From: a bacterium UBP3_UBA6266
Lineage (GTDB): Bacteria > Auribacterota > UBA6266
NCBI GenBank assembly: GCA_002440765.1
Contig: DJVC01000004.1
Span: 1 to 23,303, forward strand
Length of the DNA: 23,303 nucleotides
Direction: 5' to 3'
The notes under the pieces were generated by a model. The model was not told where the DNA came from, did not search any database, and saw only the letters and a program-made list of their open reading frames with translations. Shown piece by piece: positions 753 to 21,263 of the stretch (its first letter is position 1; each line of letters starts with the position of its first letter). The position numbers and the translations under genes were made by a program.

Positions 753-3700
753 TCACAATCTTTCATCCCGTTTCTTCAGCATCCTTAAATGTTCCCGGGA
801 TCCCAGAAACCATATTAACAATAAAAACGCTGATATCAAAGCCAGAGGGATTTTCCACCCGACCCGCTTTAAAGTATACATCGATTTGCTCTCTATGTGC
901 TCCTTCTTATATTTAAGTTCTTCATCTTCATCATAATAATTCACCGACTTTATCCAGTGATCGATATCAAGCGGCCTCCGTTCCATAAATGTCTGGGCTT
1001 TCCATCCGTTATCAAGATATACCGTGGAGTTATCAGGAAACACGGCTATGGTAAGCATGCCCGGCTTTTCCCCGGTCGGCTCTCTGCCCGATTCAAAATT
1101 CCTCTCAATCTTTATCGGCCTCAGATAAGGATACGGAACAAAAGGATCATAATATTCTACCTGCTCATCCCCGCTTTCAACCGGGAACATATTTACAAGC
1201 CTTATCTGGATATAGGGCCTCGCCCTGATAATCAGCTGGCCGTTCAGCGTGTGGACGTCATAGATAAAATCGTCTGAATTAAGAATACAATATTTTAAAC
1301 CAAGTATCGGCGGACCTTCAGGCAGGCCGAACGGTCTTATCTCTTTTTCATATGGCACGGCTATGCCTTTATGGCTGAAGACATCCCTGGGGTATTCAAA
1401 CATACCGGCAAAATATTTTACCTCCTTCAGGGAACCGTCATCTTCTATTATATGCAATCCGGGTAATACACCCGGAGGCACCACGTCCATATTTTCAAGA
1501 GAACTCTTGATTTTGGCAATACTTATATGTAAATTTTTCTCTTTTATTGTTCCTTTTTTTATAATGTTTTCAAGCTCATCAAATGTTTTCGGCCATTTTC
1601 CCTTTTCAACATCCGCGGACAGTAAAGCCCCGCCGGCAAATTCTTTTATAAGAGCCGCTCTCATTTCATCGACGTTTTTTGATTCGTTATACCATTCCTT
1701 GATTATGGTTTCTTTTCTCTTCCCTATAGTTTTTTCTTTTTCGCGGTTGTTTTCATCATCCCATTTTTCGATAAGTATCTCCTGCCCGAGCCAATTGCGA
1801 ACTCTCCGGATATTTTTCTTTATATCAAGCCCTTTATGTTTCCCGATAACATTGTATTTGATCACCGCAAGTTCCCTGCTTAAGATATCTTCGGGCATAA
1901 GATAACTTACGTTTATATGGGATATTGTGTCGGTGTGGACAGGGTTGCCCGATGCGTCTGTAACAATCCTGTAGTTTATTTCGACAGAACCCGGAAGAAG
2001 GGTATCTGAAGTTATCCCCAGACTACCCATGTTTTCCAGGTCTGCGCTATTGAAAACGCTATCTGCGCGCTCAGGGTCAAGAATCTCTCTTACAGCCAGC
2101 AACTGCCCGCTTAAATTAAATGAAAGAGACCTGGATGCGACAGGTTTACCGCTTATCCATTCAAACGGAATCTCGATTTTGCCGCCGGTTATCTTAAGTC
2201 TTTCCCTCCCCATGGCATCACCCGGCATGTAATACACTACAAAAGATACGGCTTCCTCGCCATAAACCCCCTGAAGGTTATTTATAACTTCCCTTTCTTC
2301 AATCACCATTGTATCGTTTATCTCTTCCGTTGCCTGACTGTTAACCAGCACCAGAATAATGTCCGCCGCTTTCTGTCTTTCTTCAGGAGCCATATATATA
2401 AGATTTTTTTCAATGGCTTCCCTTAACGTAGGTTTTTCACCTGTGGACCTGAAACGGTAAACCCACTGCCTGCCTTTCAGCATTTCCGAGAGGTCTTCAA
2501 CATTACCCATATTCACTTTTACAAGAGGGTCAATATATACATCCCTTAACAGTTCGCTTCCGTCTTCGTAACCCATAACCGCTATAACATCACCCGAGAC
2601 TCCCGCTTCCAATTCGCCTTCCATATTGTAATAGTTTATTATTGTCTCATATGCCGGCAAGCCATCCCGGAAAACTGTTTTTCCGTATATATCTTTAACA
2701 AATATCCTTTCCTCCATTACATAATTTTTCTCATCCGGAGTCCGGCCCTTATAAATACTTTCCGAAATATCCGTAACCCAGCTGCCCTCCATATCTATCA
2801 CATAGGTATGGCTTCCCATCATCTGACCGGAATCTTCATCGTATAAAATATCCGTTCTGGTCTCCGCGATAACATTCTTGGTAAGAGGGTCGATATGAAT
2901 ATTTCCCGCAAGTATGAACTTCAGATTTCCCGCTATATCATAAGTTTCTACCTGCAGCATATTCCCGCTTTTCTTATCCCTTACGCCTATCCACACAAGG
3001 CCGTACACATCACGGTAATCTCTTCCGCCGATATCTCTCCCTAAAACGGAAAAGTATTCTTTTGGAGACGCGTCCGCTTTGATTTTCGCTTTCTCTATTT
3101 CTTTTAAAAGTTTTTCGGCTCCTTTTAACCCATGGCTTATGGTGTGAAGATATCCTTTCTCGTCAAGCCAGAACATCTCGGTATTAAGACGGTCAAACTC
3201 CTTGATGAGAGACTGTCTGACCTGCGCGTCCGCTTCTTTGTCGATTTTCTCAATCAAATCTGCCTGGATATTTTTCAGGTTCTGTAGTTCTTCGTCACGG
3301 GCATCTTTCCCGAGCAATATCCACAACGGCTCGATCTTAAGGGGCTTTTCCCCTATCAACGGGCGCTTAATAGTCATGGCCATGCCGTCAATAAGGCCTT
3401 TCTCATATTTCACCGAATTGATTTTTGTCCGCTTGTCAACTTCCCAATCGGCCAGCAGTAACCTTGTCCCAACGACAATATCGGTGCCCCTGTCTCTTGA
3501 ATAGGTCCTTGAAAACAGGCGGCGGGATGTGTCAAGGGCAAGAACCTGTATATAGTAAAAATTGCCTTCTTCGCGCATGGCAAGCGTTCCGTCAAAAAAA
3601 GGAATTATTCCGGACTCAAGCAATCTTCTTCTTTCCTGCCCCTCCGCATTATTGAATCTTATATACATCTGCTCGTTTATCGGCACCTTCGCTACCATAG

Positions 3701-5738
3701 CGGGCAGGTCGTCGACGCTTTCATAGGCATCCACCACCCTGTTGTTTTCATCAAGTTCCACGGCGGTACAATACTTCATGATAATATGTCCTTCAGGCAG
3801 CCCCCGTACCGACTTGAATTCCACCGTATTATCTTTTAAATCTTCCCTGTTTGACTGCGGGACATCCCGTTCTGTCCTGAACTGCCTTACAATATTATAA
3901 TCCCCATCCACTTCGAAAGCGTAATTGGCGCCTTTTGAATAATCAATGTCCAGGTTATATTTAATGGCTTTCATCCACTGGCTGCCGGTCGATTCATCAA
4001 AATAAAGGTATTCTTCCTCAATTATTTTCCTGATGTCGGGAGAAATCTCATATGTTTTTTTCTTTACCAGCTTCCCATCCCGGGTGATTTCCACCGCATC
4101 ATACCCCGATTCCGATATATCTATCAAACCGTCAACCCACGCGCTGTAACTCGTCATCAGCACCGATTCAAGCCTTGATCTAGCGAGAAGATAATCCATA
4201 AGTGATTTTTCATAAAGTATTTTGTAATATATAAACGGTCTTTCGGGCACATCGTCTTCGCGGACCGCCTCCCTGTAGGCCGAAAGAGTAATTTCCGGAG
4301 GCAGGTCGGTCTCGATAAACTGCGGGAACATGTTCAGGGGCGCTTTTATCTTTCCAAAAGCAACCACCCACGGCGCAATCCTCTCGATGGAATCCCTTAT
4401 TTTAAACCCGTCCAATTCAAACGGGTTGTACCCGGCAAGAGGAAAAGCAACCCAGCAGGAGGAAATGTTCGCTTCCGCCGCCGGAGTAAACCAGTTATCA
4501 AAACCGAATCTCCTCATTCTCGGAAGAGTCGCATACGGAAGAGACGCTGTTTCTTCTGTCCGGGCAGCCATTATGGAAAGATTTTCAAGTATGCCCTTTG
4601 CCTTATCCGAATAATATACGGCTTTCTGATTATTATCCCTGTCCAATTCATAAACAGCCATCACCATATACGCAAGCGCTGTTTGTGAACTGAACTCGGG
4701 AGTTATTATTTCCTGCCTGCCTCCTCTCCCCAATTTATCGGTAAAATCAAAACCTGTAACTCCTTTTATTTCCGTTCCGTCGGGATGCAGATAATCAACA
4801 GTAACCAGCGCTTTATCAAAACTTTCAACGATTTTTCCGGCTGTATCCTGACCTTCGAATACAACTTTTCCTTCCGCGGCATTGAGCACTTCGGGCCCGA
4901 GGATAATAATAGCCAGCGCGTTAACATCAAGCCCGTACGTCGGGTCAACAACATTGTTGAAAGTGCCTATGGAAAAAAAGCCCTGTTTTCTGTTGTAAAC
5001 ACCGCTTTGCGCAAGCCACTGAAGAATTTTGCCGGCGGTTCTTTCATACTTATTATCGCCCGTAACCCTGAAGAGCATCTTAAAGAAAGCATAACAGTCC
5101 ATATTTTCTTCAGTGGACTTCACGCGGTATTCAGCATTCAGGGGATTGGGATCTTTTCTGACACCACCGTCGACACTCTGCAGGGATACGAGAAACTCCG
5201 CGATTTTGACGGCCGCATCAAGCCATTTCTGCTCCTTTGTCAGGTGGTATTCTTTCAAAAAACCGATCCCCCAAAAAGCATTGGGGCCGGCGGTAGTGTA
5301 AAAATCCGAACTCAAGCCGCTTACCAGGTCGACCGTATTGGGGATATTCCTTTTTTCTTCGAGGCTTCTCATCGTATCGGCCATATTCCCCGCTTCTTCG
5401 GTTTTCCCGCTCATAAGCAATACCTGGTGGGCAATGGCAGAGGCATATGTTGAAGATTGGCCTCTGTGTATATTGGGCACCCCCTCAGTTGATATTTCAG
5501 TAGGAATAAGTCCTGTCGCGGGATACCGGCATTCAAGAAGAAACGAGGTTATTTCCCCCGGCCTTAACATCTCATCTCTATGCGTCACATCAGCAAGCGG
5601 ATTAACGATAATATCATATTTGCTGACTGTGGTTTTCCTGCGGGCCTCGGTGGCAAAAACATATAAATCGCAAAAAGCCGCCGTAAACAGGACAAATAAA
5701 ACACCTAAAAAAAGATAATTTATTTTTTTATTTTTCAT
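753..5738 (-). CDS. Giant secreted alpha/alpha-toroid plus beta-repeat protein with C-terminal membrane anchor
   Basis: 1661 residues. Residues 1-29 form a signal peptide or N-terminal membrane segment. About 85-445 is helical with short motifs (FWGIGFLKEYHLT near 155, ENMDCYAFFKMLFR near 211, YGLDVNALAIIILG near 268) and ends LPY...ISSCWVAFPLAGYNPF; this looks like an (alpha/alpha)6 toroid of the six-hairpin glycosidase/lyase type. Residues 450-1620 are beta-rich and unassigned, with a recurrent aromatic/His-x-x-x-G-x-L turn near 934, 1037, 1207 and 1497, GLPEG at 647 and 1471, and a charged helical stretch at 815-890. A hydrophobic helix at about 1630-1646 followed by a basic tail would anchor the C-terminus in the inner membrane. 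It starts 12 bases after the TolC-like gene and shares its toroid domain with the 9817-11589 gene. The substrate is unknown and catalytic residues cannot be assigned by eye. The start ATG has only a poor Shine-Dalgarno, consistent with coupling to the gene before it. Confidence 0.85.
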   Translation of the reverse strand: MKNKKINYLFLGVLFVLFTAAFCDLYVFATEARRKTTVSKYDIIVNPLADVTHRDEMLRPGEITSFLLECRYPATGLIPTEISTEGVPNIHRGQSSTYASAIAHQVLLMSGKTEEAGNMADTMRSLEEKRNIPNTVDLVSGLSSDFYTTAGPNAFWGIGFLKEYHLTKEQKWLDAAVKIAEFLVSLQSVDGGVRKDPNPLNAEYRVKSTEENMDCYAFFKMLFRVTGDNKYERTAGKILQWLAQSGVYNRKQGFFSIGTFNNVVDPTYGLDVNALAIIILGPEVLNAAEGKVVFEGQDTAGKIVESFDKALVTVDYLHPDGTEIKGVTGFDFTDKLGRGGRQEIITPEFSSQTALAYMVMAVYELDRDNNQKAVYYSDKAKGILENLSIMAARTEETASLPYATLPRMRRFGFDNWFTPAAEANISSCWVAFPLAGYNPFELDGFKIRDSIERIAPWVVAFGKIKAPLNMFPQFIETDLPPEITLSAYREAVREDDVPERPFIYYKILYEKSLMDYLLARSRLESVLMTSYSAWVDGLIDISESGYDAVEITRDGKLVKKKTYEISPDIRKIIEEEYLYFDESTGSQWMKAIKYNLDIDYSKGANYAFEVDGDYNIVRQFRTERDVPQSNREDLKDNTVEFKSVRGLPEGHIIMKYCTAVELDENNRVVDAYESVDDLPAMVAKVPINEQMYIRFNNAEGQERRRLLESGIIPFFDGTLAMREEGNFYYIQVLALDTSRRLFSRTYSRDRGTDIVVGTRLLLADWEVDKRTKINSVKYEKGLIDGMAMTIKRPLIGEKPLKIEPLWILLGKDARDEELQNLKNIQADLIEKIDKEADAQVRQSLIKEFDRLNTEMFWLDEKGYLHTISHGLKGAEKLLKEIEKAKIKADASPKEYFSVLGRDIGGRDYRDVYGLVWIGVRDKKSGNMLQVETYDIAGNLKFILAGNIHIDPLTKNVIAETRTDILYDEDSGQMMGSHTYVIDMEGSWVTDISESIYKGRTPDEKNYVMEERIFVKDIYGKTVFRDGLPAYETIINYYNMEGELEAGVSGDVIAVMGYEDGSELLRDVYIDPLVKVNMGNVEDLSEMLKGRQWVYRFRSTGEKPTLREAIEKNLIYMAPEERQKAADIILVLVNSQATEEINDTMVIEEREVINNLQGVYGEEAVSFVVYYMPGDAMGRERLKITGGKIEIPFEWISGKPVASRSLSFNLSGQLLAVREILDPERADSVFNSADLENMGSLGITSDTLLPGSVEINYRIVTDASGNPVHTDTISHINVSYLMPEDILSRELAVIKYNVIGKHKGLDIKKNIRRVRNWLGQEILIEKWDDENNREKEKTIGKRKETIIKEWYNESKNVDEMRAALIKEFAGGALLSADVEKGKWPKTFDELENIIKKGTIKEKNLHISIAKIKSSLENMDVVPPGVLPGLHIIEDDGSLKEVKYFAGMFEYPRDVFSHKGIAVPYEKEIRPFGLPEGPPILGLKYCILNSDDFIYDVHTLNGQLIIRARPYIQIRLVNMFPVESGDEQVEYYDPFVPYPYLRPIKIERNFESGREPTGEKPGMLTIAVFPDNSTVYLDNGWKAQTFMERRPLDIDHWIKSVNYYDEDEELKYKKEHIESKSMYTLKRVGWKIPLALISAFLLLIWFLGSREHLRMLKKRDERL

Positions 5739-5750
5739 AAATTTTTAAAA

Positions 5751-8700
5751 TCACTCGGCAAATGCAACATCTTCATTTTTTTTTGATTCCACTGTTTGTA
5801 ATATATCGTCTAAGCCTTTATTGACATATTTCCTGAGGTATTGATCAATCCGGTTGGATGCCGCGACTATCCCATAGAAAGACTCTATTCTTTCTATCTT
5901 CATCTGAAGAAGTATGCCGAGCACTTTCAGCTCTTCCGTAAGGTCCATTTTCCCCGTTCTCCTTATGTCGTCAAACCTGTTCTCCATTTCGTGCTCAATC
6001 CCGGAAAGGTTTCTCACCGCATAATCAAAATCCCTCAAAGCTATCTCATAAGCATCAAGCAGCCTTTGAGCATCCTGTACTCTTTCGATGATATCATCCT
6101 GCGCCGTCAAAGCCGTGATTTTTTCTTCAATGGACTCAATCTTGCCGGACAACCCCGTTCCCGGATCATAAAGCGTCAGTGACGCGCTTGAATTCACAAA
6201 TTCTTTAAACTCCTGGACAGCTTCCTCGGTAAGCAGGGGTAAATCCAGTATGGCTTCTTCAAAGTCGCCTATATCGGAAAGCGAATTGGTGAGGTAAGAA
6301 TAATTTGTGCTTATCAACATCGACTTTATCATCCTGGCCACCGCTTTGGTTGCATACTTCGATGCTTCTTCCGCAAATTCGCCGTATTTCGATTCGGTCA
6401 TAATAAGAGGGCCGAGAAGGGCTTCCCTCACGGCATCAATTTCCCTGTCGAGTTTCAATCTTATCTTTTCGGGCTCTGTCGGTATAATGACATTTCTGTC
6501 TTTATCGAATATCTCAAGGTTCATCACCGAAAATCGCGGATCGAGAGAACCAACCACGATTTCAAGGTGTTTTTTATTGTTATCGGCGGTTTCCTTGGAA
6601 TCAAGAAGTTTCGCCTGAATCAGGCTTATGACCTGTTCCTGTTTTAAATACTCCATCCGGGTTTTTATCCCGGATTTCATCTGTTCCTCTATGCTGTCGA
6701 GAGTTTCTTTTTCCTTGTAATACCTTTCGTTGACCGCGGATAAGACCGCCATTGATTTAAGATAATCGGCATAGGCCCCTATCACACCCTGCGCAATGTC
6801 AAATTTCGCCCTTGCGATTTCGAGCTTGTCCATTTCGACTTTCATTTCCTGTTCTTTTTTCATCAGGCTGCTGATAAAATTGACTTCGGCGTCTATGGAC
6901 CCCACAAAAACAAACGATTCTATTTTAGTTTTCTTGCCGGCATCTTCTTTTATCTTTTCTTCCACGTAATTGGTTTTAAAACTCCCTGAGAAATAAAACG
7001 AATTTATATAATTCATTATATCTTCTTCAGAGCCGAGCCTATTTTTCAGGCTTTTCAACTCATCGCTCGTTTCCATGGCAAGGTCAAGCGCATTTTGCAG
7101 TCCGGAAATTATGAAAGTCCCTTTGTCACTCGAAATATTCCCATCCGGACCGGAAAGAAATTCATTTAAAGACTCATTGTAAATATAATCCTGAAGAGCC
7201 GTATCCATCTGAAGGTCAAGCGCGACAATCCTCATTTCGGATTCCGTCTGGTCTCTCTTTTGTTTTGTTCCGAGTTCCACAAGCTTCTCTGTTAGCCTGT
7301 GCTGGGCTTCAAGATTGAGCCTGTCGAGTTTCATCCTTCTCAGGGATAATTTATCCTCTCTGGATTTGATTCCGACAGTTGTTTTCATCTCATCAAGTTC
7401 CTTAAGAGCCTCCGCATATACAAGTTCCGCATCAAACCTGTTTTTTTCCTGCTTGGACCTTTCCATGTTCCTTATCTCATTGCCTCCGAAAGGGACAGAA
7501 CAGATAAGGGCTGTCATCAGGTTGGGGTTTTCAAAACCCTTAAGGTCCTCTCCCTTGACCTCAGTAAGGAACTGGCAGTTAAAACCCCGGAATGCGGTTT
7601 GCTTTATCTCTGCCGCTTTAAACGCGTTCACTGTATTCAGTGCCGCGCTTACACCGGCTTCGGAATCGTAGAAAGGAAGTATGTTTTTCCTGATCGTGTC
7701 CAGAAATCTTTCCGTCCCTTTCTCTCCGTCAAACATCAGCTCTCCCTCAAGCGATATCTTATCGTTTAGCGGTATGCCGGTTAATTTCTTCAGGATATAT
7801 TCACAGATGAACAGATTGCATTCTGTTCCCGCAAGGTCAATGTTGGCTTCGAGCTGTTCCAACACAAGGGGCTTGATGTTTATTTCCTCATATTTGGGAT
7901 ATTGGCCGCTTTTACCTTCTCTCATATCATCAATAACGGATTCCTTCAAATCCATGATTTTCCGGATAAATCCCATCTGTCTTTTATATTGCACGACTTT
8001 GACAAAGTTATTTATCAGCTCAATGTATTTCCTATTCCTGTAAACCTGTAATTTGTCTTTTGCCGCTTCAAGCTTGGCTTTTGCTTCCTCTATCATATAT
8101 TGCTGGCCTATATCAAAAAATTTGCTCTCGACCGATATGAAAGCCTTTGTGGTATTGGTCTTATCGCCGGTAGCATAAGACTCGTTTTCAACGGCTACTC
8201 CGCCTTTCAGAATGGGATTGTTAAAACATCTGGCCATTTTAAGGTTAAGCATTTGCAGTTCAACGTTCTTTTCCATTGCAAGCTCTTCCGCCGTCTTATT
8301 GCTTTCCCCGAGGTCAAGAATATTCTCAAATGTCAGGTTTTGGAATGAGGGGGAAGAAAGTGTTTCTTCCGGGTTCTCCCTGGAAATCATCATATAATTA
8401 TACGTGTAATCTCTCATCAACTGCCGCAAAAGCAGTCTCGCCGTCAAAAGCTGCTCATTTTTTTTAAGCAATTCTTCTATGGGAAGCTCCACTCTCTCCT
8501 TCATCAATGCCACAGTATCTTCGATCCCGGCAATAAACTCGGTAATTATCTCAAATGCGGTGGAGAATTCCCTGGTTTTGCCGTTTCTCTCGATGTTATC
8601 CCTTTCTATGGCATCATTTTCCACATGAACGTCCAATCCGGCTATATCAGCGTTAACCCTGCCGAACTTTTTAAAACTGTCGGAATAACCGAAATCGGTC

Positions 8701-9716
8701 ACGAAAAGATTCAATACCAGCGAAGACGTGGCTCTGTAAGTCGCGGGCGTGTCTTTTATTGTATCCTGTTCCATCGTTCCCGTAGATGTCGCGATAAGCT
8801 CGAGCAAAGGACGGTAATCCAATTTTGTTCCGGCCCTTGCGACTTCATATTTTTTTTTCAGGACATCGATACTGTATTCCGGTTGCCGCAAATGCTCCTC
8901 AAAAACCAGGTTCCTGGCTTCTTCAAGAGTTTCGGGGAACTCGGAAACTTTTATTACAAGAGTCTCATAGTCATCAAGGCCCAGAAGGATTTTAATATCC
9001 CTCTGCACATCCTTAAATCTTTTATATGCTGCAAGGGACTCTTTAAAAAAAGGGGTTTTATTGTATTCGGCTTTTAAAATATCCAGCCGTGTATATTTAG
9101 GGTCTTTTCTCATTTTTTCAAGCTGGCTTTCGGCTTCTTTATAACTTTCAACGCAAACGGTCAGTTCCTTCTGAGACAGTGAGAGGTTAAGATACGCTTC
9201 CATAAGTGCTATAAAACGGTCTTTAAACGTGGAGACTAATACCGTTAATTCTGTTTCCCTGTTTCTTTCCCCCACATTTATACGGTCAAGAAAATCCGAG
9301 TCAAATTTATATGTTATGTTCAAGCGCTGGCCCAAATAAGCGCCTTTCGCGTTGCTTATTTTATAAAAAAGGTCTACCGGAGCGCTTATTCCGGCCACGG
9401 CGGTAATGGTCGGGAAAAGCGAGGATACTGTTGTCTTTTCAATATCTAATTCCGCCTGCTTTATTATAAATTTCTGCGCGGCAATATCCCTGTCTGTTTC
9501 ATAAAGTCTTTTTATCGCATCCTGTATGGAAAGGTTGTTATAGTCTACCCCGTCTATGACACGGGGTCCGCTGTCGAGGGCGACTTTTTCAAGAAAAGCA
9601 ATTTCATCCTGTATCCCGCCGTCTTCAGAAAAAGATGCCGGCAAACAGAAAATGAAAAAGATATAAATAAAAAACGCCCTCTGGGTTGCCTGCCGGGCAA
9701 AATGCAATATGCTCAT
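5751..9716 (-). CDS. Single-chain triple TolC-like outer-membrane channel protein
   Basis: 1321 residues from the ATG at 9716. An upstream in-frame TTG at 9722 also exists, but AAGG lies 6 bases before the ATG, so I prefer the ATG. An N-terminal hydrophobic signal sequence ends near CLPASFSED. The rest is six successive TolC/OEP half-protomer repeats, beginning (TTG-based numbering) near residues 65, 264, 463, 668, 870 and 1085. Each has a long helix, a beta hairpin over a loop, a strand-to-helix turn (e.g. YKFDSDF near 138, SKFFDIGQQ near 533, SVPFGGN near 742, LTLYDPGTG near 1182) and a long return helix. Ordinary TolC has two such repeats per ~450-residue protomer and trimerises; this chain has three protomer equivalents, enough for 12 strands. 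The modules are strongly diverged from each other, so this is not a recent duplication or assembly artefact. It has no lipobox. It is the first gene of an operon with the 1661-residue protein. Confidence 0.87.
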   Translation of the reverse strand: MSILHFARQATQRAFFIYIFFIFCLPASFSEDGGIQDEIAFLEKVALDSGPRVIDGVDYNNLSIQDAIKRLYETDRDIAAQKFIIKQAELDIEKTTVSSLFPTITAVAGISAPVDLFYKISNAKGAYLGQRLNITYKFDSDFLDRINVGERNRETELTVLVSTFKDRFIALMEAYLNLSLSQKELTVCVESYKEAESQLEKMRKDPKYTRLDILKAEYNKTPFFKESLAAYKRFKDVQRDIKILLGLDDYETLVIKVSEFPETLEEARNLVFEEHLRQPEYSIDVLKKKYEVARAGTKLDYRPLLELIATSTGTMEQDTIKDTPATYRATSSLVLNLFVTDFGYSDSFKKFGRVNADIAGLDVHVENDAIERDNIERNGKTREFSTAFEIITEFIAGIEDTVALMKERVELPIEELLKKNEQLLTARLLLRQLMRDYTYNYMMISRENPEETLSSPSFQNLTFENILDLGESNKTAEELAMEKNVELQMLNLKMARCFNNPILKGGVAVENESYATGDKTNTTKAFISVESKFFDIGQQYMIEEAKAKLEAAKDKLQVYRNRKYIELINNFVKVVQYKRQMGFIRKIMDLKESVIDDMREGKSGQYPKYEEINIKPLVLEQLEANIDLAGTECNLFICEYILKKLTGIPLNDKISLEGELMFDGEKGTERFLDTIRKNILPFYDSEAGVSAALNTVNAFKAAEIKQTAFRGFNCQFLTEVKGEDLKGFENPNLMTALICSVPFGGNEIRNMERSKQEKNRFDAELVYAEALKELDEMKTTVGIKSREDKLSLRRMKLDRLNLEAQHRLTEKLVELGTKQKRDQTESEMRIVALDLQMDTALQDYIYNESLNEFLSGPDGNISSDKGTFIISGLQNALDLAMETSDELKSLKNRLGSEEDIMNYINSFYFSGSFKTNYVEEKIKEDAGKKTKIESFVFVGSIDAEVNFISSLMKKEQEMKVEMDKLEIARAKFDIAQGVIGAYADYLKSMAVLSAVNERYYKEKETLDSIEEQMKSGIKTRMEYLKQEQVISLIQAKLLDSKETADNNKKHLEIVVGSLDPRFSVMNLEIFDKDRNVIIPTEPEKIRLKLDREIDAVREALLGPLIMTESKYGEFAEEASKYATKAVARMIKSMLISTNYSYLTNSLSDIGDFEEAILDLPLLTEEAVQEFKEFVNSSASLTLYDPGTGLSGKIESIEEKITALTAQDDIIERVQDAQRLLDAYEIALRDFDYAVRNLSGIEHEMENRFDDIRRTGKMDLTEELKVLGILLQMKIERIESFYGIVAASNRIDQYLRKYVNKGLDDILQTVESKKNEDVAFAE

Positions 9717-9816: not shown

Positions 9817-11589
9817 CTACTGCAATTCAACCGCTGTCTGTTTCAATGTCAGGGGATTAAAACCGTTTTTGGCGAATATATACCATGCGGCAACGGATAT
9901 AAAACCTCTGTCCTGTCTTACCCATTCGAATCCGCCCGATTTATTGGATGTATAAGGAAGGGCTTTAAGCGTAATATTATCTATTTTTCTGCTTATTATG
10001 AATTTATCCATCTCATTCGCATAAAAATATCCTCTTTGTTTGTCTCCGCAGGTAATAAAGGCGCAGGCAATATGCCCTGTCCCGTCCAGCCAGGCATTAT
10101 TTATTTCCATATCCGGAGAATGATAAAAGCCTATGGCTTTCTTCCCGTTAAAATCCACCGTCTTCCGGTATCTCAGGTCATATTCGGGAATATTCAGCAG
10201 ACCGGCATAATCACTGCCGAACGCAAGCACTCTCCATGTATATAAATCAAGAGGAAGGCTTTTTCCCTTTACTGATTTGTCCAGCCACTTTCTGATTTTT
10301 TTCGCGTAATCAGTTTCCCCGCATAAAAGAAAAGCTGCGTAACAATCAATATTACCTTCCGGGTGGCCATAGTTTTCATGCAGTCTGCTGTCGCCGTTGC
10401 GCCATCCGTGCCGGACATAACCGCTGGCGCTGTCTTCCTCCTTGTACCACGATTTGAGCAGATCCTTCAAAAGTACCGTTATCTTCTTATATCTGTCGGA
10501 AGAATATGTCTTCTCATGGTATCTATACGCGATAAGAAGCCACGCCATATCTCCCATCCACCTGTCGCTGGCGCCGGGGTTATGGTAAGCGGGCGTTCCG
10601 CCTGATTTGGCAAGCACGACAAACTGGAAAAACCCTCTCGGCTCGCTTTTATAGAAAAAGTTCTGTATTGACGGACATGGATTTGCTTCAAAGGTCATAT
10701 CAGAGAAAAAATCGAGTATCCTCTCCGCCCTTTCCCTTTCTCCCTTAAGTATAAATGCCATGGCGACAAGCGCATTATTGAAAGTATGTGCCTGATTGCC
10801 CTCCATTGAAGGTAAAAGCTGTTTTTCGGGAGAGGATGTATCCTGAATGACTTTCAACCATTCAATGACAAGTGTCTCTTCAGGTATAAGTTTTTCCGCT
10901 CTTCTCTGTCTGTCTCCAATACCCGAAAGTCCGCTATCAGGGTCTATGACCGGGCCGGAGGGAGAAAAGGAAGCGGGAAGCCCCTCCTTTGCAAACCCTA
11001 TTTCATCAAGCCAGACGGTCCCTTTCCCGCTGCCCGAAAAAGCAAGTGAGACTTCGGAAAGGGCGTCAAAATTATCATCTCCGCCCCACGCATATTCCAG
11101 GGTATCGCTGTATACCACAATGCGTTGCCAATCTTTGTGATTATTGTTAAGTTTTATTTTTCTCCAGAATGTCGAACCGTCCTTATCTATAAATTTTATC
11201 TCCATATCGCCGGTCGCTTTCGCCTTAATCAAAAAGGCGAAAGGTATTTTTTCGGAAAAGCCGGAGGATATTTTTTTGTTGAACTGTACCCAACCGCCCC
11301 CTTTTTTGAGCTCATACTTTATTTCAAGCCCCTGTCCGTAGCCGGATTCGCATGAATTTATCACAATTGAACTTTTGCCGTCAGTGCCTATGACCCACAG
11401 TCCGGGGCTGTCCCATGCTTCTTCAACATAAGAATCCGGTATTTTTTCTTCTTTCGGTTCAGTAATCCGCCGGGGTTCTTCTTCGGCTCCCCTGATATCT
11501 TTGCCGGCAAATCTGGATTTTCTCACAGCCGCAAAACAAACTGTCAGCGCAGCGCAGAACAACAGAATAAATACAAGGGTCTTTCTCAT
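9817..11589 (-). CDS. Secreted carbohydrate-binding-like plus alpha/alpha-toroid protein
   Basis: 590 residues with a clear signal peptide (1-20), then a Pro/Glu/Arg-rich linker. Residues 52-200 form a jelly-roll like those of galactose-binding-type carbohydrate modules, ending GTVWLDEIGF. Residues 230-580 form a helical toroid: NQAHTFNNALVAMAFIL near 265, WMGDMAWLLIAYRYHEK near 344, EGNIDCYAAFLL near 411, NNAWLDGTGHIACAF near 497 and a final ALPY...ISVAAWYIFAKNGFNPL. The DCYA and LPY...NP(F/L) motifs recur in the 1661-residue protein, so the toroids are related. Known families with this fold hydrolyse or cleave polysaccharides, but the reaction here is unproven. A strong GAGGAGAGG site precedes the ATG. 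The gene lies 63 bases after the prepilin-like gene and 100 bases before the start of the TolC-like gene. Confidence 0.85.
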   Translation of the reverse strand: MRKTLVFILLFCAALTVCFAAVRKSRFAGKDIRGAEEEPRRITEPKEEKIPDSYVEEAWDSPGLWVIGTDGKSSIVINSCESGYGQGLEIKYELKKGGGWVQFNKKISSGFSEKIPFAFLIKAKATGDMEIKFIDKDGSTFWRKIKLNNNHKDWQRIVVYSDTLEYAWGGDDNFDALSEVSLAFSGSGKGTVWLDEIGFAKEGLPASFSPSGPVIDPDSGLSGIGDRQRRAEKLIPEETLVIEWLKVIQDTSSPEKQLLPSMEGNQAHTFNNALVAMAFILKGERERAERILDFFSDMTFEANPCPSIQNFFYKSEPRGFFQFVVLAKSGGTPAYHNPGASDRWMGDMAWLLIAYRYHEKTYSSDRYKKITVLLKDLLKSWYKEEDSASGYVRHGWRNGDSRLHENYGHPEGNIDCYAAFLLCGETDYAKKIRKWLDKSVKGKSLPLDLYTWRVLAFGSDYAGLLNIPEYDLRYRKTVDFNGKKAIGFYHSPDMEINNAWLDGTGHIACAFITCGDKQRGYFYANEMDKFIISRKIDNITLKALPYTSNKSGGFEWVRQDRGFISVAAWYIFAKNGFNPLTLKQTAVELQ

Positions 11590-12427: not shown

Positions 12428-13051
12428 TTATTTTTTTCTCGAAAAAACAATAAGTCCGAGTAAACCTCCTGCGAGTAAAACTATTGTTCCCGGCTCAGGC
12501 ACCGGAGTGGCGTCAAGATAAGCATTATCGAAATATGCTGTCCCCGTGCCGCCGTCAACGGTCTGGTTGATAAAAAATGCAAGAGAAGCATGAGTAGCAT
12601 TAACGGGCGCCGCTCCGCTTATATTGAGCGCTGTCCAGTCATTTGTCCCGCTCAGAGGAGTTGATGCTCCTGACGTTCCAACCCAGCTTCCTGTGTTGAA
12701 CCAGTCTATCTTTATCGTTACTTCTTCATTGATAAGCGCATTGGTTTTAGCAAATATCGTCCCGTAATATGTCTGCCCTGCCGTAACGGCAACAAGCGTA
12801 TTATCATACATAAAATAATCATCGCCGGTTCCTGCATTGGCATTAGCGGTGAACTTAATGGATTTTGAACCTCCTACACCTGTACCCGTATCCCCATAAG
12901 CTCCTGCATGCTGGCTATTTCCCCAGGGCCCCCACCATGCGCCCTGTTCAGCATTCTCAAATCCGGCATTCGATAAAAGATTTGCATGTGCGATTGCCGG
13001 GAAAAAGCCGATAACTACTGTTAAAAGAACTACTGTCAACAACTGTTTCAT
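12428..13051 (-). CDS. Secreted jelly-roll protein with PEP-CTERM sorting signal
   Basis: 207 residues from the ATG at 13051, chosen because GGGAGG lies 7 bases upstream; a farther in-frame ATG at 13069 sits inside that site. A signal peptide ends near AIAHA. The mature part starts NLLSNAGFEN and ends GTAYFDNAYL, the framing of CBM4/9-like carbohydrate-binding jelly-roll domains. The C-terminus is a classic PEP-CTERM tripartite signal: PVPEPG, a hydrophobic helix (TIVLLAGGLLGLIVF) and a basic SRKK end. In Gram-negatives this tail is processed by an exosortase and often marks exopolysaccharide-associated proteins; no exosortase is visible here. It is the second gene of a pair with the 13074-13640 gene, 22 bases apart. 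Confidence 0.88.
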   Translation of the reverse strand: MKQLLTVVLLTVVIGFFPAIAHANLLSNAGFENAEQGAWWGPWGNSQHAGAYGDTGTGVGGSKSIKFTANANAGTGDDYFMYDNTLVAVTAGQTYYGTIFAKTNALINEEVTIKIDWFNTGSWVGTSGASTPLSGTNDWTALNISGAAPVNATHASLAFFINQTVDGGTGTAYFDNAYLDATPVPEPGTIVLLAGGLLGLIVFSRKK

Positions 13052-13073
13052 CTGTTTTCCTCCCTCCATTTAT

Positions 13074-15342: not shown

Positions 15343-18243
15343 TTATCCTTTCTTCATATAGAGAATGCGTGTTTCTATATTCATATCGCTTGAATGTTTT
15401 TCGAACGCTTTTTTATATATTTCAAGCTGTCTATTGTATCTTTCTCCTCTGTAGTCGGACCATTTAAAATCAACTATTATTATCCTGTTGTTTTTTCTGT
15501 AAACACAATCAATCCTTCCGTTGATTTCATATCGCCCTTCCCTGAGAACAAACGGCAATTCCCTGTATACCTCATCGGCAGATTCCATTTCCCTGTACTC
15601 GGGCGTTTCGACAAATCTTTCAACCTCCGGGGCAACTTTAAGGGCCTCAGTCTCAGACAATTTATGCTTAAGCAGTCTTAGAATATCCTTTTTTGAATCC
15701 ATGTGTTCCAGAGTGTAATGAATAGCCGTTCCGATAGTTTCCTTTTTATCCGCGCGGGACTCATCTTCAATATCCGAAGATGTATCCTCTTCCTGTTCCA
15801 TAATATCCCTGGAAAGCATATATCCTTCCTTATCAAGATACCGCGAGACGCTTATTTTTTCAACAGGCGGATTCAACACATCCATATCGGTATCGGCAAA
15901 TTCCATGTTTTGCCCCACATCCAGTTCTACAACGCCGGGGGTTTTCCCCGAAGCTGTTTCTGCCGGACTTTCATATCTGTTTTCGATATAAATATCCCGC
16001 GCCGGAGAAACATTCTTAAGGCAATCAAACCATGTGTTAAGGTTTTTTCCCTTTTCTCTGGATTCCGGCGTCTTGTTCAGGCAGGAAACAATCAACACAT
16101 CTCTGGCCCGCGTAACGGCGACATACAACAGCCTTTTTTCTTCTTCGCTTCTTTCATATTTTGTTCTGTTTTTTTCTTTTTCATAATTGGAAGTTTCCCA
16201 GTATTTATTCATTTTGAACGCAAACGTCCCGTTATGTCTTATAATCACCTTATCCCCGATAAATCTTCCCGACGATGTGTCGGGAATGATTACAATGGGG
16301 AACTGCAGCCCTTTGGACCTGTGAACCGTCATCAGCTTCACCGAATTATCGCCTTCTCCGGACACCGAAGCAAGCCCCTCATCCGACTCAAAACTTATAT
16401 CATCGATAAACCTCTGGGCTATGTTTTCCAGAGAGTCATAACCCGAGGATTCCATGGCGCGTATTTTTCCTATAAGCTTTCTAACGTTGGCAATTCTTAT
16501 ATCCCCGTCGGCAAGTTTTGCCAGGGCACTAAAATATGAAACCCTCTCCAGAAACTCGGACAATAATTCGGACGGGGTGCGGGTGCTTTTTTTCTGCCTT
16601 ACATCCAGCAAAATGCCGTCCAATTTTTGAACAGCGTTTTTTCTCCCGCCATTCAAAAACTTTTCGGGTTTCAGTATTTTATTTTCCAGTTTCCCGCAGA
16701 CTATCCGGTTATCATCCGCTGTTGACGCAAAAGATCTCAAAAGGCTCGCATATGCAAGCTCATCCCGCGCATTGGACATAACATTCAAAAAATTCAGTGA
16801 GTCACGCACTTCAAATCTTGACAAAAACCCGGAATTGCTCATAACAAAATAAGGGATGCCGCGCTCCTGCAGGCATTTTTCGTAGATATCGACTTTGGTC
16901 AGTTTGCGGAATAAAATTGCGATATCCGAATAAAGGGGGTTCTCTTCTTTCCCGTTCCTGAACACTTTCACTTCCTTCCCGTTTAAAGTGCCTTCCTCCG
17001 CCATCTGCTTAATAAGCACGCTCAGGTATTCCGCCTCCTTTTTTCTCTGCGCTTCGGCGGTTTCAAATCCTTCCCTGTTAAACAACCTGTAAACACTGCC
17101 GGAATCATGCGTTTCTTTTCTCTTCGCTTTAATAAGGTCTCCGGTTTTATCGAAGTCAGATATAATAAGCATTGAAAGATTATTTATATAATCCAGTATT
17201 TCCTTCTGGCTTCTCCTGTTCTCCCTTAAAGACCTCTTAAGCCCTATTTGTTCTCGGATTTTACTGAATATCGCGGGATCCGCATTTCTCCAGCCGTAAA
17301 TAGACTGCTTAAAATCACCCACGACAATTATTTTGTCGGACAGCTGAATTTCGGCGATATTTCCGGCAAGGGTCTCCTCTCTCTCGGAAAGCCACAGAAT
17401 AAACTCCATCTGGATATTGTCCGTATCCTGGGCCTCGTCGAGTATTATCAATTTATATCTTTTTTTTATCTCCTGTCTTACGTCTTTATGATCCCTCAAT
17501 AAATTCCTGGCTTTGATAAGGATTTCATCATATGTAATCCTGTTTTGTTTAAGTTTTTCATACCTTTCAAGGACATCATCCGCAATCTCCGCAAGACATA
17601 AAGAAATCTGTTTTATTTCATCTTTCTCATTTTTAACGGACTTCGAAACAAAGTTTTTCACTTTTCCGGAAATATCCGCAGCCCGGAAATTATTTACAAT
17701 ATCAAAAACATAATTCTCAAAACCGCTCTGAAATCCTTTCTTTTCGAGAGGGAGGACGGCAAGAACCCTGTTAAGAACCGCATCTTCGCCGGAATCAATC
17801 CTTGAAACCACCGCCTGCCTTAACGCTTTTCTCAGAATTTTCCGTTTGTCCTCATCTATTATTTCCGGGTCCGGGTCTATATCCGCATAGGAGCAGAATT
17901 CTCTTAATATTTTTACCGCAAATGAATGTATTGTTGATATCTGGATTTCATCTATTACTCTTACATAATCAAACCGTTCGCGAAAATCCGATCCTTTTGC
18001 CGTTTCCAGAAGTATTTCTTTTGCTCTTTCCTTAAAATCTCCCGCAGCTTTTTTCGTAAATGTTATGCAGCATATGGAGGCCGCTATTTCCTTTCTCTCT
18101 TTAGCATTACGTCCTTCTTCAATCAACCGTATTACCTTATTCATCGCAAAAGTTGTCTTCCCTGTTCCCGCAGAGGCGGAAATCGCGGCTTTCGTTTTGG
18201 TGTTTAGAACATCTTCTATCTGTTTTTCCCATTTATATTTCAT
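15343..18243 (-). CDS. addA: AddA-like UvrD-family helicase/nuclease
   Basis: 966 residues from the ATG at 18243, chosen because it overlaps the upstream stop as ATGA; a longer in-frame start at 18303 would run 60 bases into addB. SF1A helicase motifs are intact: Walker A SASAGTGKT (22-30), motif II LIILDEAQDTD (about 265-275), motif III VVGDFKQSIYGWRNA (307-321), motif V VKLMTVHRSKGLQF (635-648) and motif VI LLYVAVTRARD (705-715). A C-terminal RecB/PD-(D/E)XK nuclease follows: GTAIHYTLEHM (838-848), GRIDCVY, VDFKW (about 924-928) and RQLEIYKKAF (938-947). With the upstream AddB-like subunit it should unwind and resect double-strand DNA ends to load RecA. It is somewhat shorter than Bacillus AddA. 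Confidence 0.9.
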   Translation of the reverse strand: MKYKWEKQIEDVLNTKTKAAISASAGTGKTTFAMNKVIRLIEEGRNAKERKEIAASICCITFTKKAAGDFKERAKEILLETAKGSDFRERFDYVRVIDEIQISTIHSFAVKILREFCSYADIDPDPEIIDEDKRKILRKALRQAVVSRIDSGEDAVLNRVLAVLPLEKKGFQSGFENYVFDIVNNFRAADISGKVKNFVSKSVKNEKDEIKQISLCLAEIADDVLERYEKLKQNRITYDEILIKARNLLRDHKDVRQEIKKRYKLIILDEAQDTDNIQMEFILWLSEREETLAGNIAEIQLSDKIIVVGDFKQSIYGWRNADPAIFSKIREQIGLKRSLRENRRSQKEILDYINNLSMLIISDFDKTGDLIKAKRKETHDSGSVYRLFNREGFETAEAQRKKEAEYLSVLIKQMAEEGTLNGKEVKVFRNGKEENPLYSDIAILFRKLTKVDIYEKCLQERGIPYFVMSNSGFLSRFEVRDSLNFLNVMSNARDELAYASLLRSFASTADDNRIVCGKLENKILKPEKFLNGGRKNAVQKLDGILLDVRQKKSTRTPSELLSEFLERVSYFSALAKLADGDIRIANVRKLIGKIRAMESSGYDSLENIAQRFIDDISFESDEGLASVSGEGDNSVKLMTVHRSKGLQFPIVIIPDTSSGRFIGDKVIIRHNGTFAFKMNKYWETSNYEKEKNRTKYERSEEEKRLLYVAVTRARDVLIVSCLNKTPESREKGKNLNTWFDCLKNVSPARDIYIENRYESPAETASGKTPGVVELDVGQNMEFADTDMDVLNPPVEKISVSRYLDKEGYMLSRDIMEQEEDTSSDIEDESRADKKETIGTAIHYTLEHMDSKKDILRLLKHKLSETEALKVAPEVERFVETPEYREMESADEVYRELPFVLREGRYEINGRIDCVYRKNNRIIIVDFKWSDYRGERYNRQLEIYKKAFEKHSSDMNIETRILYMKKG

Positions 18244-21200
18244 GTTTTCGGGCCCCAGTCTTCGGCTATCCTGCAAAAATAAGGGAACTCGCAGTTCCTG
18301 CAATCAACCTGCCTGTCAAAAGGGTGTGCGGGAAACTCCATGTCGATAACAGCTTTTTTGAATCTCATTATTTTTTCGGAAAGGATTTCCTCCCAGTCGC
18401 CCGATACGGCGATTTCCGAAAAGAATTCCGCTTTTTCATCAAAGGGGTCGGCTTTTAAAAGGAAATAACATGCCCTGATTTCCGTCGGGTTTTTTATACC
18501 CAGATTTTTCTGCGCGGTTTGTTCTGAAAGGACCAGTTTATAAAGAGCGGCCTGGGCCAGATACCCTTCGCGAAAATCTTCTTCGCTTCTGACCTGCCTG
18601 CTTGTTTTATAATCGACCACATAAACTATGCCTGTTTTCGAAATATCTATTCTGTCTATATACCCGTTCAGTATTATCCTTTCGCCGCGTATACCGGTTA
18701 CGAATTTCTTAAACGGGAATTCAGCCCTGATAAAGTCCGTTTTCCCGGGTCCTATCGGGGATTTTTCTTCAAGCTTCAGAAAGTTCCTGAGGATTTCGGT
18801 CATCTCTTCTTTCTTTACCGACCACAATTCCCTCCTGCCTGTCAGATTGTTCTGCTCATATGAATTAAAAATTCCGCCGGCAATATCCAATAAAAGCTTT
18901 TCTCCGCCCTTTCCTTTCCTCTCTTTGCAGAAATTTTCCAGCACCTCATGGATAATGGTACCTTCATCCATAACATCAATATAGAGTTCCGGCCTCGGAA
19001 AATCTCTCATTTTCATGAGTGACTGCATAAAATATCTGAACGGGCATCTTAGAAACGCCTCCAGCGCGGTTGCGTTAAACGAAAATGCCCCGTCCTGAAA
19101 AAATTTATCCGATAAAAAACGGTGGATCTCCTCGGAAGAATAAAAACCCCTGTAATCTTTAGCATCACCCGGCGCGATGACATTAGGATTTCTCATAAAC
19201 ACGCTGTCATTCTGCTCCAGCTCCCGCTGCAACCCGCCGGGCCGTAAAAGGAGTTTCTTCCCCCTGCTTTTTTTTGCGATTGAGACCAGCAGGTCTGTTC
19301 TGGATGCGGCATCATCCGGTTCACTTATCATAGAGGAGGGCGGGATTTTTTTTATTTCAAGCGTCGAAACCATTTTCCCATCCTTCCCCGATGAAAACAT
19401 CATTTCTATTTCTTCGAGGAATACGGATTTTTTTCTGTCTTCCCGGGTCTCCTCAGTAAACGGGACTGTGAATATGCATTTGTCCGAAATATTCAGAAAA
19501 CTTCTGTAAAAAATATTTCTGTCTACAATTTCTTCATCGGCCGATTTTTGAACCGGCAGCATTCCTTTTTCGTCCAGTATACAGTTCAGGGCTTCTATAT
19601 CGGCGTCTTTAAGTATAAGTCCTTCTGTTTTACGGGACGGGAACTCGCCTTCTACCATCCCGCAAAAAATGCCTATTTTGAAATTCATGCCATCCGTATC
19701 AAAAGGCGTCAATATTTTTACAGCGTTCAGGTTGTTTTTTTCATGTATAACTTCTCTTTCGGCCAGGCTTTCTATCATTTCCTTAAACTGGGCGACAGTC
19801 ACAACAGACGACCCCATGATATTATCCGGACAGGCCTCTATTTTATCCAGCAGTCCGTACACCGCGGATACTTCATCGGCAATCATATTTCCGGTATAGT
19901 AACGGCTTATAAAATCTCTTAACCATTCTGAAAAATCCTTTGCTGTCCGTTCAGCTTCAAACGAAACATCCCGGATAAACCCGCAAAGAAATCCATCTAA
20001 TTTTTTCACATCTGAAATATCAATCCCGGTATTTATAAAATCTCTTGTTTCCCTGCCTTTTCCGGCGAGCCAGTTCAAACACCCGTCAACGGGTTTATTG
20101 TCCGCTGACAAATATCCGCAAAGGCAAAGGATAAGCCCGGCGACATCTTTGTCTATACCTATATCGGCAAAATACGGCGCGCCGATTATCCTGGTAATAT
20201 TTTCCCTGGAAAAATGATCTTCAGCCAGCGACAATACAAGCATCAGGTCTTTGTAAAAGTTGGTACGCTGCAGCTGCCTTCCGCGCCTGAAATAATACGG
20301 GATGTCAGCCCTGTTGAAATATTGTCTTATGTAGTCATCATAAAGCGATATTTTTTTCGTTATCACCACGATATCCGAAGGCTTCAAATATTTTTCGCTG
20401 TAAAGATGTTTTTTTATGCGGAGGGCTATCTCTTTTACTTCTAAATCTCTGTCCGCGGCTTCAACTATGCTGATTGAACCGTCTTTCGTCTTTGCTTCAT
20501 TATTCACAGCCCTGAAAAGGTTTTTCTGGGCAAATGCCAAATCGGAAGGCTGCCTCGCGCTACCCGAAACGGTGTCATCAACCCTGATGTTGCCCGGATT
20601 CATCTGTTTTAAGTACCTGTATGAAGATATACCCGCTTCAAATGCCGCATTGCTTTCCTCGCAGGGGAAATACACAGTAACTTTTATTCCTCTATCGGCA
20701 AAAATTTCGAGCAGTTTCAATTGCACGTTTGTGAGCTGATACCTTGACCTTACCACAATTTTTTTTATGCCTTTTAAAAACAACGGTGTTTCTCCCGTTT
20801 TCCTGAGCGCATCTACAACCAACCAGCCCATATCATCATAATCATGGCAAAAACCGGCGTATCCGGAGTAGATATTGGAAAAATCGGATAATCGTTTTGC
20901 CGACAGTTTTCCGCCCGTATTATTGTCAATATGGATTTTCAGTATTGCGGGCCCAACGGCGGCTTTTTTAAGTATTTTCACGCTCCTTTTCAAATCCCTT
21001 ATAAAACCGGGTTTTGAAAAAACAGAATAAAAATATTTTTTTTCCCTGTCGTTAAAATAACCGGAACAAATCCTCTTGAGGATTATCTCTTTTTCAAAGT
21101 CAGTTATAAAACGCTCCTCAAGAAGCTCCGCCGCAAGATTAAGCAGGATCTTTCCGAATGTATAGAAGGTATGGTTAAAGTAGACTTCTTTTCCCATCTC

Positions 21201-21263
21201 CCTGATATATTCCGAAACGGCAAGAGGGGAAGGAAAAATCTCTATTGTTTCACGAGAAAGCAT
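18240..21263 (-). CDS. addB: AddB-like nuclease/scaffold subunit with Fe-S cysteines
   Basis: 1007 residues. The N-terminal two thirds look like the helicase-related scaffold (VRSRYQLTNVQLKLLEIFA near 171, SDIVVITKK near 296, FKIGIFCGMVEGEFP near 528) but have no Walker A, so this subunit is unlikely to be a motor. The C-terminus is a RecB-type nuclease with four cysteines framing it, Cys740 (LRCPFRYF), Cys988, Cys991 and Cys997 (CRNCEFPYFC), the pattern that binds a 4Fe-4S cluster in AddB. Nuclease motifs are GTIIHEVLE (His772), GYIDRID (Asp870), VVDYKTS (Asp884, Lys886) and QAALY (Gln904). It overlaps addA by 4 bases and follows a membrane-protein gene by 28 bases. Confidence 0.88.
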   Translation of the reverse strand: MLSRETIEIFPSPLAVSEYIREMGKEVYFNHTFYTFGKILLNLAAELLEERFITDFEKEIILKRICSGYFNDREKKYFYSVFSKPGFIRDLKRSVKILKKAAVGPAILKIHIDNNTGGKLSAKRLSDFSNIYSGYAGFCHDYDDMGWLVVDALRKTGETPLFLKGIKKIVVRSRYQLTNVQLKLLEIFADRGIKVTVYFPCEESNAAFEAGISSYRYLKQMNPGNIRVDDTVSGSARQPSDLAFAQKNLFRAVNNEAKTKDGSISIVEAADRDLEVKEIALRIKKHLYSEKYLKPSDIVVITKKISLYDDYIRQYFNRADIPYYFRRGRQLQRTNFYKDLMLVLSLAEDHFSRENITRIIGAPYFADIGIDKDVAGLILCLCGYLSADNKPVDGCLNWLAGKGRETRDFINTGIDISDVKKLDGFLCGFIRDVSFEAERTAKDFSEWLRDFISRYYTGNMIADEVSAVYGLLDKIEACPDNIMGSSVVTVAQFKEMIESLAEREVIHEKNNLNAVKILTPFDTDGMNFKIGIFCGMVEGEFPSRKTEGLILKDADIEALNCILDEKGMLPVQKSADEEIVDRNIFYRSFLNISDKCIFTVPFTEETREDRKKSVFLEEIEMMFSSGKDGKMVSTLEIKKIPPSSMISEPDDAASRTDLLVSIAKKSRGKKLLLRPGGLQRELEQNDSVFMRNPNVIAPGDAKDYRGFYSSEEIHRFLSDKFFQDGAFSFNATALEAFLRCPFRYFMQSLMKMRDFPRPELYIDVMDEGTIIHEVLENFCKERKGKGGEKLLLDIAGGIFNSYEQNNLTGRRELWSVKKEEMTEILRNFLKLEEKSPIGPGKTDFIRAEFPFKKFVTGIRGERIILNGYIDRIDISKTGIVYVVDYKTSRQVRSEEDFREGYLAQAALYKLVLSEQTAQKNLGIKNPTEIRACYFLLKADPFDEKAEFFSEIAVSGDWEEILSEKIMRFKKAVIDMEFPAHPFDRQVDCRNCEFPYFCRIAEDWGPKT

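Follow-up and report, generated by a model that had tools for sequence, protein, structure and literature searches.

A tandem chain of TolC-type half-protomer units, possibly a single-chain outer-membrane duct, in a bacterium of the phylum Auribacterota

Results

The chain and its gene

The window analysed here is a stretch of 23,303 nucleotides (contig DJVC01000004.1, assembly GCA_002440765.1) from the bacterium UBP3_UBA6266 of the phylum Auribacterota. A gene on its minus strand encodes a chain, hereafter the window chain, in which TolC/OEP half-protomer units stand in tandem. Four of these units are supported by profile tests, and we infer six in all. The explanation that we judge best, at somewhat better than even chances, is that the chain is a naturally fused, pseudo-trimeric TolC-type duct that would fold alone into an outer-membrane barrel of 12 strands and a helical tunnel in the periplasm; of this, the pseudo-trimer and the closed barrel are predictions. 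The gene and its probable export signal are as follows.

5751..9716, minus strand: TolC/OEP chain, probably of six units, 1321 residues from ATG 9716 (TTG 9722 also possible); stop codon 5751-5753
9630..9716, minus strand: likely Sec signal peptide (basic start and hydrophobic stretch, no lipobox; judged by eye from the sequence)

Counted from TTG 9722, the open reading frame (ORF) comprises 1323 residues, and all three database copies of the chain start at the ATG. A protein search returned three sequences, one of them the window's own and the other two 87% and 83% identical to it and equal to it in length. The second genome of the genus (G002) holds a relative that is 69-73% identical and colinear, split between two contigs, and the differences from it at codon positions 1/2/3 amount to 132/81/286 and 138/87/307. 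The frame that the first-pass annotation had placed here is thus a real, conserved gene. Conservation varies only slightly along the chain (68-77% identity to G002 in the six units); the hairpin intervals, which were set by hand, are 76-83% identical and exceed the identity of the whole unit in five of the six.

The units and their profile support

The first-pass annotation had described six repeated helix/beta-hairpin/helix units, starting near residues 65, 264, 463, 668, 870 and 1085. Our residue bounds, which give units of about 200-240 residues each, are compatible with these starts. The Pfam OEP model (PF02321) matches units 1, 3 and 5, each in one stretch, with 29.7 bits overall against a cut-off of 22, and this score above the curated cut-off places the window chain in the OEP superfamily. 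The expectation of at least three OEP units was thereby borne out by Pfam alone, with one match in each third of the chain, and a decoy test also supports unit 2 and, weakly, unit 4.

In the decoy test the units of all available family members were scored one by one against half-profiles of TolC and compared with 146 decoy windows of 205 residues, taken from three giant proteins and from the chain on contig C108 of the same genome (see below) outside its TolC part. The TolC profile had 142 rows, from 120 listed of 433 database TolCs together with TolC regions longer than 400 residues from the phylum. Two decoys overlap a Pfam OEP stretch of one giant (G005), and omitting them lowers the counts by 0-2. 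In the list below, the first count is the number of decoys that reach the highest-scoring family member (of two to four compared per unit), and the second the number that reach the window's own copy. All units lie on the minus strand.

8940..9545, residues 60-261: unit 1, TolC half; Pfam OEP E 0.0017 alone, hhalign E 2e-5; decoys 0 and 2
8346..8939, residues 262-459: unit 2, TolC half; no Pfam OEP match; decoys 1 and 13
7728..8345, residues 460-665: unit 3, TolC half; Pfam OEP E 3.4e-4 alone; decoys 0 and 0
7122..7727, residues 666-867: unit 4, probable TolC half; no Pfam match; colinear alignment of VPFGG with IFDGF; decoys 3 and 10
6477..7121, residues 868-1082: unit 5, TolC half, the strongest match in the chain; Pfam OEP E 1.7e-4 alone, hhalign E 3e-5; decoys 0 for all four members, its own copy included
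5754..6476, residues 1083-1323: unit 6, inferred TolC half; colinear alignment of LTLYDPG with WNIFDG, and a TolC-guided model; decoys 34 and 79

On the strength of these counts, the window's own sequence suffices to identify units 1, 3 and 5 as TolC halves beyond chance, unit 2 is a TolC half supported via its relatives, and unit 4 is a marginal case. Unit 6 is probably a TolC half as well, judging by its position, the colinear alignment and the guided model. Of the six units first described, 1, 2, 3 and 5 are therefore supported, unit 4 is borderline, and unit 6 stands without profile support. A comparison of 25 TolCs with their reversals agreed for units 1, 3 and 5 (p 6e-5, 0.024 and 7e-4). 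When units were joined, units 1-2 matched the TolC profile across both halves (hhalign E 4.9e-7), and units 3-4 and 5-6 gave partial matches (E 0.0094 and 1.4e-4), each in a single comparison. The best control values were E 0.0036 among 18 reversed sequences and E 0.12 among seven other segments of the C108 chain, one of which overlaps C108 unit 1. When the profiles of the units were compared with one another (15 pairs), no similarity was detectable (best E 0.029).

Another TolC-bearing chain in the genome

Evidence beyond what the first-pass annotation had at hand comes from contig C108 of the same genome (L011:49-11589, G000:C108), which encodes a protein of 3846 residues with three Pfam OEP stretches. 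Its TolC units, divided by eye, occupy residues ~595-1775, a stretch six units long, flanked by some 590 residues on the N-terminal side and some 2070 on the C-terminal side, both regions without Pfam matches. The spacings of its anchors are irregular (77, 67, 56, 68, 61 and 71), and the units were for that reason judged by the decoy test. The decoys reaching the best member for units 1-6 numbered 1, 57, 0, 1, 19 and 0 of 146, so that four of the six are supported. No BLAST alignment between the C108 chain and the window chain was better than E 0.14. If the two nevertheless descend from one six-unit ancestor, which is a candidate ancestry, every position from 1 to 6 would have support, because unit 5 is provided by the window chain, unit 6 by C108 and unit 2 by the window family. 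The C108 chain has a database relative that is 93% identical, presumably in one genome with sequence P0003, and a partial copy in a further genome (G001).

The genes before the C108 chain encode a Wzz/tyrosine-kinase protein, a polysaccharide export protein and a BBP2_2 barrel, and farther on there are a PPIC-type isomerase and a sugar phosphotransferase. The named XrtA/PEP-CTERM models scored below their cut-offs among these neighbours, and the tyrosine autokinase and sugar-transferase subfamily models above theirs. By sequence, this is a locus of exopolysaccharide export genes of the XrtA/PEP-CTERM type.

Structure models

Modelled with 52 TolC rows as a guide, units 5-6 adopt the long-helix layout of outer membrane factors (OMFs), and the top PDB matches of the model are TolC and OprM. 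The model contains helices of 68 and 67 residues, the latter in unit 6, and no strands of three or more residues; in a canonical protomer, two helices of about 67 residues are accompanied by two strand hairpins. When the PDB was searched with a profile of the window-chain family, no OMF came up, and the two matches obtained (E 0.6-0.7) were unrelated.

Distribution, and TolC sequence elsewhere in the phylum

Each chain is rare. Among 192 related genomes searched, the window chain was present in two (its own and G002) and the TolC region of the C108 chain also in two (its own and G001), all from one genus. A scan of genome contigs gave one locus, in the bacterium isolate STD1_172. A TolC of the window's own genome is 78% identical to a TolC labelled Candidatus Aureabacteria, to which the organism likely belongs.

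In 22 further genomes of the phylum for which OEP matches at E<=0.001 were listed, these were mostly frames of ordinary TolC size. Thirteen loci from 12 other genomes (L040-L052), selected among the long OEP frames listed, are frames of 685-1110 residues, each with one TolC protomer and no tandem; extra N- or C-terminal regions stand beside the protomer. Other families of the phylum have TolC sequence inside giant frames of 9031 (L054, G012:C24), 11,357 (L057, G005:C3), 9528 (L059, G006:C33) and 3200 residues (L061, G016:C98). All four hold about one protomer or less where scanned, which was ~2250 residues each in G012 and G006 (hhalign), 3300 in G005 (Pfam) and 2762 in G016. The G006 giant has an additional third OEP stretch below the cut-off, and the G005 giant a glycoamylase match of 23.2 bits, likewise below its cut-off of 27. 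In the window's own genome, a further locus (L034:609-2994, G000:C98) has a TolC half in frame 609-1175, and a TolC half together with a PF10091 glycoamylase domain (179.9 bits) in frame 1099-2994. It is likely a TolC-glycosidase fusion, on a contig stretch that contains 4 N. Two frames with weak OEP matches, of 865 residues in contig C25 and 872 residues in G002:C100, were dropped on account of TPR-like repeats recognised by reading.

Neighbouring genes

The following neighbours in the window were noted.

9817..11589, minus strand: conserved upstream gene, 590 residues, no Pfam match; ends 100 bases upstream of the chain; same order in G002
753..5738, minus strand: conserved downstream gene, 1661 residues, with a GH76-like region near the N-terminus; begins 12 bases past the stop of the chain; same order in G002
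12428..13069, minus strand: PEP-CTERM protein (27.3 bits, cut-off 20.7) with a weak CBM_4_9 match (20.2 bits, below the cut-off of 25.9), upstream of the chain

The order of upstream gene, chain and downstream gene is conserved in G002 across two contigs. The GH76-like region of the 1661-residue protein (Pfam E 1e-7) had a single PDB match, to a mannan endo-1,6-alpha-mannosidase at E 0.41, and it is followed by a long unannotated region and, at the C-terminus, a hydrophobic stretch and then basic residues. Over 1199 aligned residues the protein is 75% identical to its G002 counterpart. Kinship of its later part with the flanks of the C108 chain was considered and rejected, as no homology was found (best whole-protein BLAST match E 0.045). 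Residues 259-439 of the 590-residue upstream protein show weak similarity to the GH76-like region (E 0.017, a single comparison). A protein with a pseudopilin-type N-terminus is also encoded further upstream of the chain. Two large minus-strand genes in positions 15343-21263, of 986 and 1007 residues, resemble AddA/AddB-type nuclease subunits by eye.

Discussion

A possible single-chain duct

TolC-type ducts carry drugs, proteins and other cargo across the outer membrane. In the fused duct that we favour for the window chain, each unit would, after export, supply the barrel with a two-strand hairpin and the tunnel with a helix of 67-70 residues and some shorter ones. Units 1-2, 3-4 and 5-6 would form three protomer equivalents, connected by short linkers, and so close the tube without oligomerisation. 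The likeliest cargo would be a glycan or a glycan-linked product, since the window chain is flanked by a conserved gene on either side, of which one has a GH76-like region, and since the C108 chain follows exopolysaccharide export genes. Seen across both loci, chances that we put close to even, if a shade below, attach to the broader proposal that the TolC trimer was made into one chain in two very different versions in one genus. One would be a free six-unit duct beside carbohydrate-active genes, the other a form of 3846 residues that has extensive additional regions and sits at an exosortase-type exopolysaccharide locus, and such a duct could be asymmetric, each sixth of the barrel and tunnel evolving separately.

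Several results weigh against the fused duct. Unit 6 is reached by 34 decoys at best, as listed above, and its reversed sequence scored higher; unit 4 has little profile support, and 13 of the 146 decoys score at least as high as unit 2 when only the copy in the window is considered. Units 2, 4 and 6 were unsupported in the reversal test with 25 TolCs (p 0.44, 0.49 and 0.91), as were units 2 and 5 of the C108 chain in the decoy test (57 and 19). Strand-like peptides were not enriched (4 of 12 in each chain); ordinary TolCs do show such enrichment (84 of 168, against an expected 0.22). Anti-helix periodicity was not significant, being reached by 479 of 1000 block shuffles (174 for C108), and four of eight even-position spacing controls likewise fell at 70-72. 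The model of units 5-6 was built on the 52 TolC rows and reaches TM scores of 0.33-0.44 (query-normalised) to TolC-type channels at a root-mean-square deviation of 16-24 A; at the hairpin site of unit 6 it has low confidence and short helices. An AlphaFold model of the whole chain (residues 60-1259, 4-row alignment) was unusable (mean predicted local distance difference test score, pLDDT, 33.3; predicted template modelling score, pTM, 0.24). No adaptor or inner-membrane pump gene was recognised in the 23-kb window, by reading and by Pfam on 8 ORFs. A role in tripartite efflux or type I secretion is nevertheless compatible with this context, because OMFs can pair with unlinked pumps. The strandless unit 6 of the model and the weakness of the window's own unit 2 when judged alone lower our confidence in the single-chain channel and raise that in the scaffold described next.

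Alternative explanations

Much of this could be accommodated by a chain that is derived from TolC and is no longer a channel, in which some units keep the fold, units 4 and 6 have decayed, and the protein as a whole acts as an extended helical scaffold in the periplasm or at the surface. The units that lack a Pfam OEP match and fail the reversal test (2, 4 and 6), the failure to recognise a pump or adaptor in the window, the lack of strand enrichment and the strandless unit 6 of the model all fit such a protein. However, unit 2 passes the decoy test via its relatives, units 1-2 match a whole TolC protomer, the spacing is kept, and the hairpin intervals are conserved above their units in five of six cases; we regard the scaffold as unlikely, though it keeps appreciable weight. 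A fused channel might also go on oligomerising into a wider barrel, of 24 or 36 strands for example, for large cargo. To this we give a low probability, as helix lengths and spacings match those of an ordinary tube, and two dissimilar chains both come to about six units in length, as many as close a TolC barrel.

That the chain is an ordinary TolC protomer with unrelated helical sequence, forming the usual homotrimer with extra coiled coils, has parallels in the phylum, both in the 13 loci with single protomers in enlarged frames and in the TolC sequence embedded in frames of 3200-11,357 residues. Since OEP matches are found in all three thirds of the window chain, this explanation is disfavoured and slightly less probable than the wider barrel. 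An assembly or gene-fusion artefact that joined separate tolC genes might be suspected in a draft genome of 140 contigs. Yet the frame is open without stops, its length is equal in two further database sequences, and the G002 relative, although divided between contigs, is colinear; the relatives refute an artefact in practice, and its probability is negligible.

The fused, pseudo-trimeric duct thus keeps its place as the preferred explanation: the observation of the first-pass annotation proved largely right, and its reading as a single-chain channel is supported in part. If this reading holds, a 12-strand composite barrel can come from one gene, its tunnel would be open to asymmetric evolution, and structural biologists would gain a monomeric OMF that allows single positions to be altered one by one.

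Comparison with known systems

According to PMC8277102, OMFs are trimers whose protomers each contain two repeats. In the parts consulted of the open-licence literature searched (including PMC13082787 and PMC8277102), no description of a single-chain TolC was found, in line with the first-pass annotation, which knew of none. The window chain has in common with the TolC/OMF family (PF02321) its OEP units, the helix layout of the modelled third and a likely signal peptide. However, family members carry two OEP repeats in a protomer of ~450-500 residues, one protomer per chain, whereas the window chain has 1323 residues with OEP signal in all three thirds and likely three protomer equivalents. 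It also stays far below the NCBIfam cut-offs for TolC (28.3 bits against 225.15 for TIGR01844, and 27.8 against 210.05 for TIGR01845).

Tripartite efflux and type I secretion systems have an adaptor and a pump adjacent, unlike the window chain as far as its 23-kb surroundings go. The TolCs of the same genome (contigs C16, C13 and C48) belong to the same superfamily, but have two OEP domains in frames of 423-531 residues. The gene on C16 is followed by a 394-residue frame and an RND-pump-like frame (the pump recognised by eye), and it is TolCs of the C16 type that give the best single pairwise match, to unit 5, with 20% identity to the own copy and E 0.2 in the genome.

The giants of the phylum resemble the window chain in carrying TolC sequence inside a longer chain, one of them with the sub-threshold glycoamylase match, and the finding points to a lineage that has OMF modules within very long envelope proteins. 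With about one protomer or less where scanned, these giants would still need to trimerise, unlike the window chain, which is proposed to close its tube alone.
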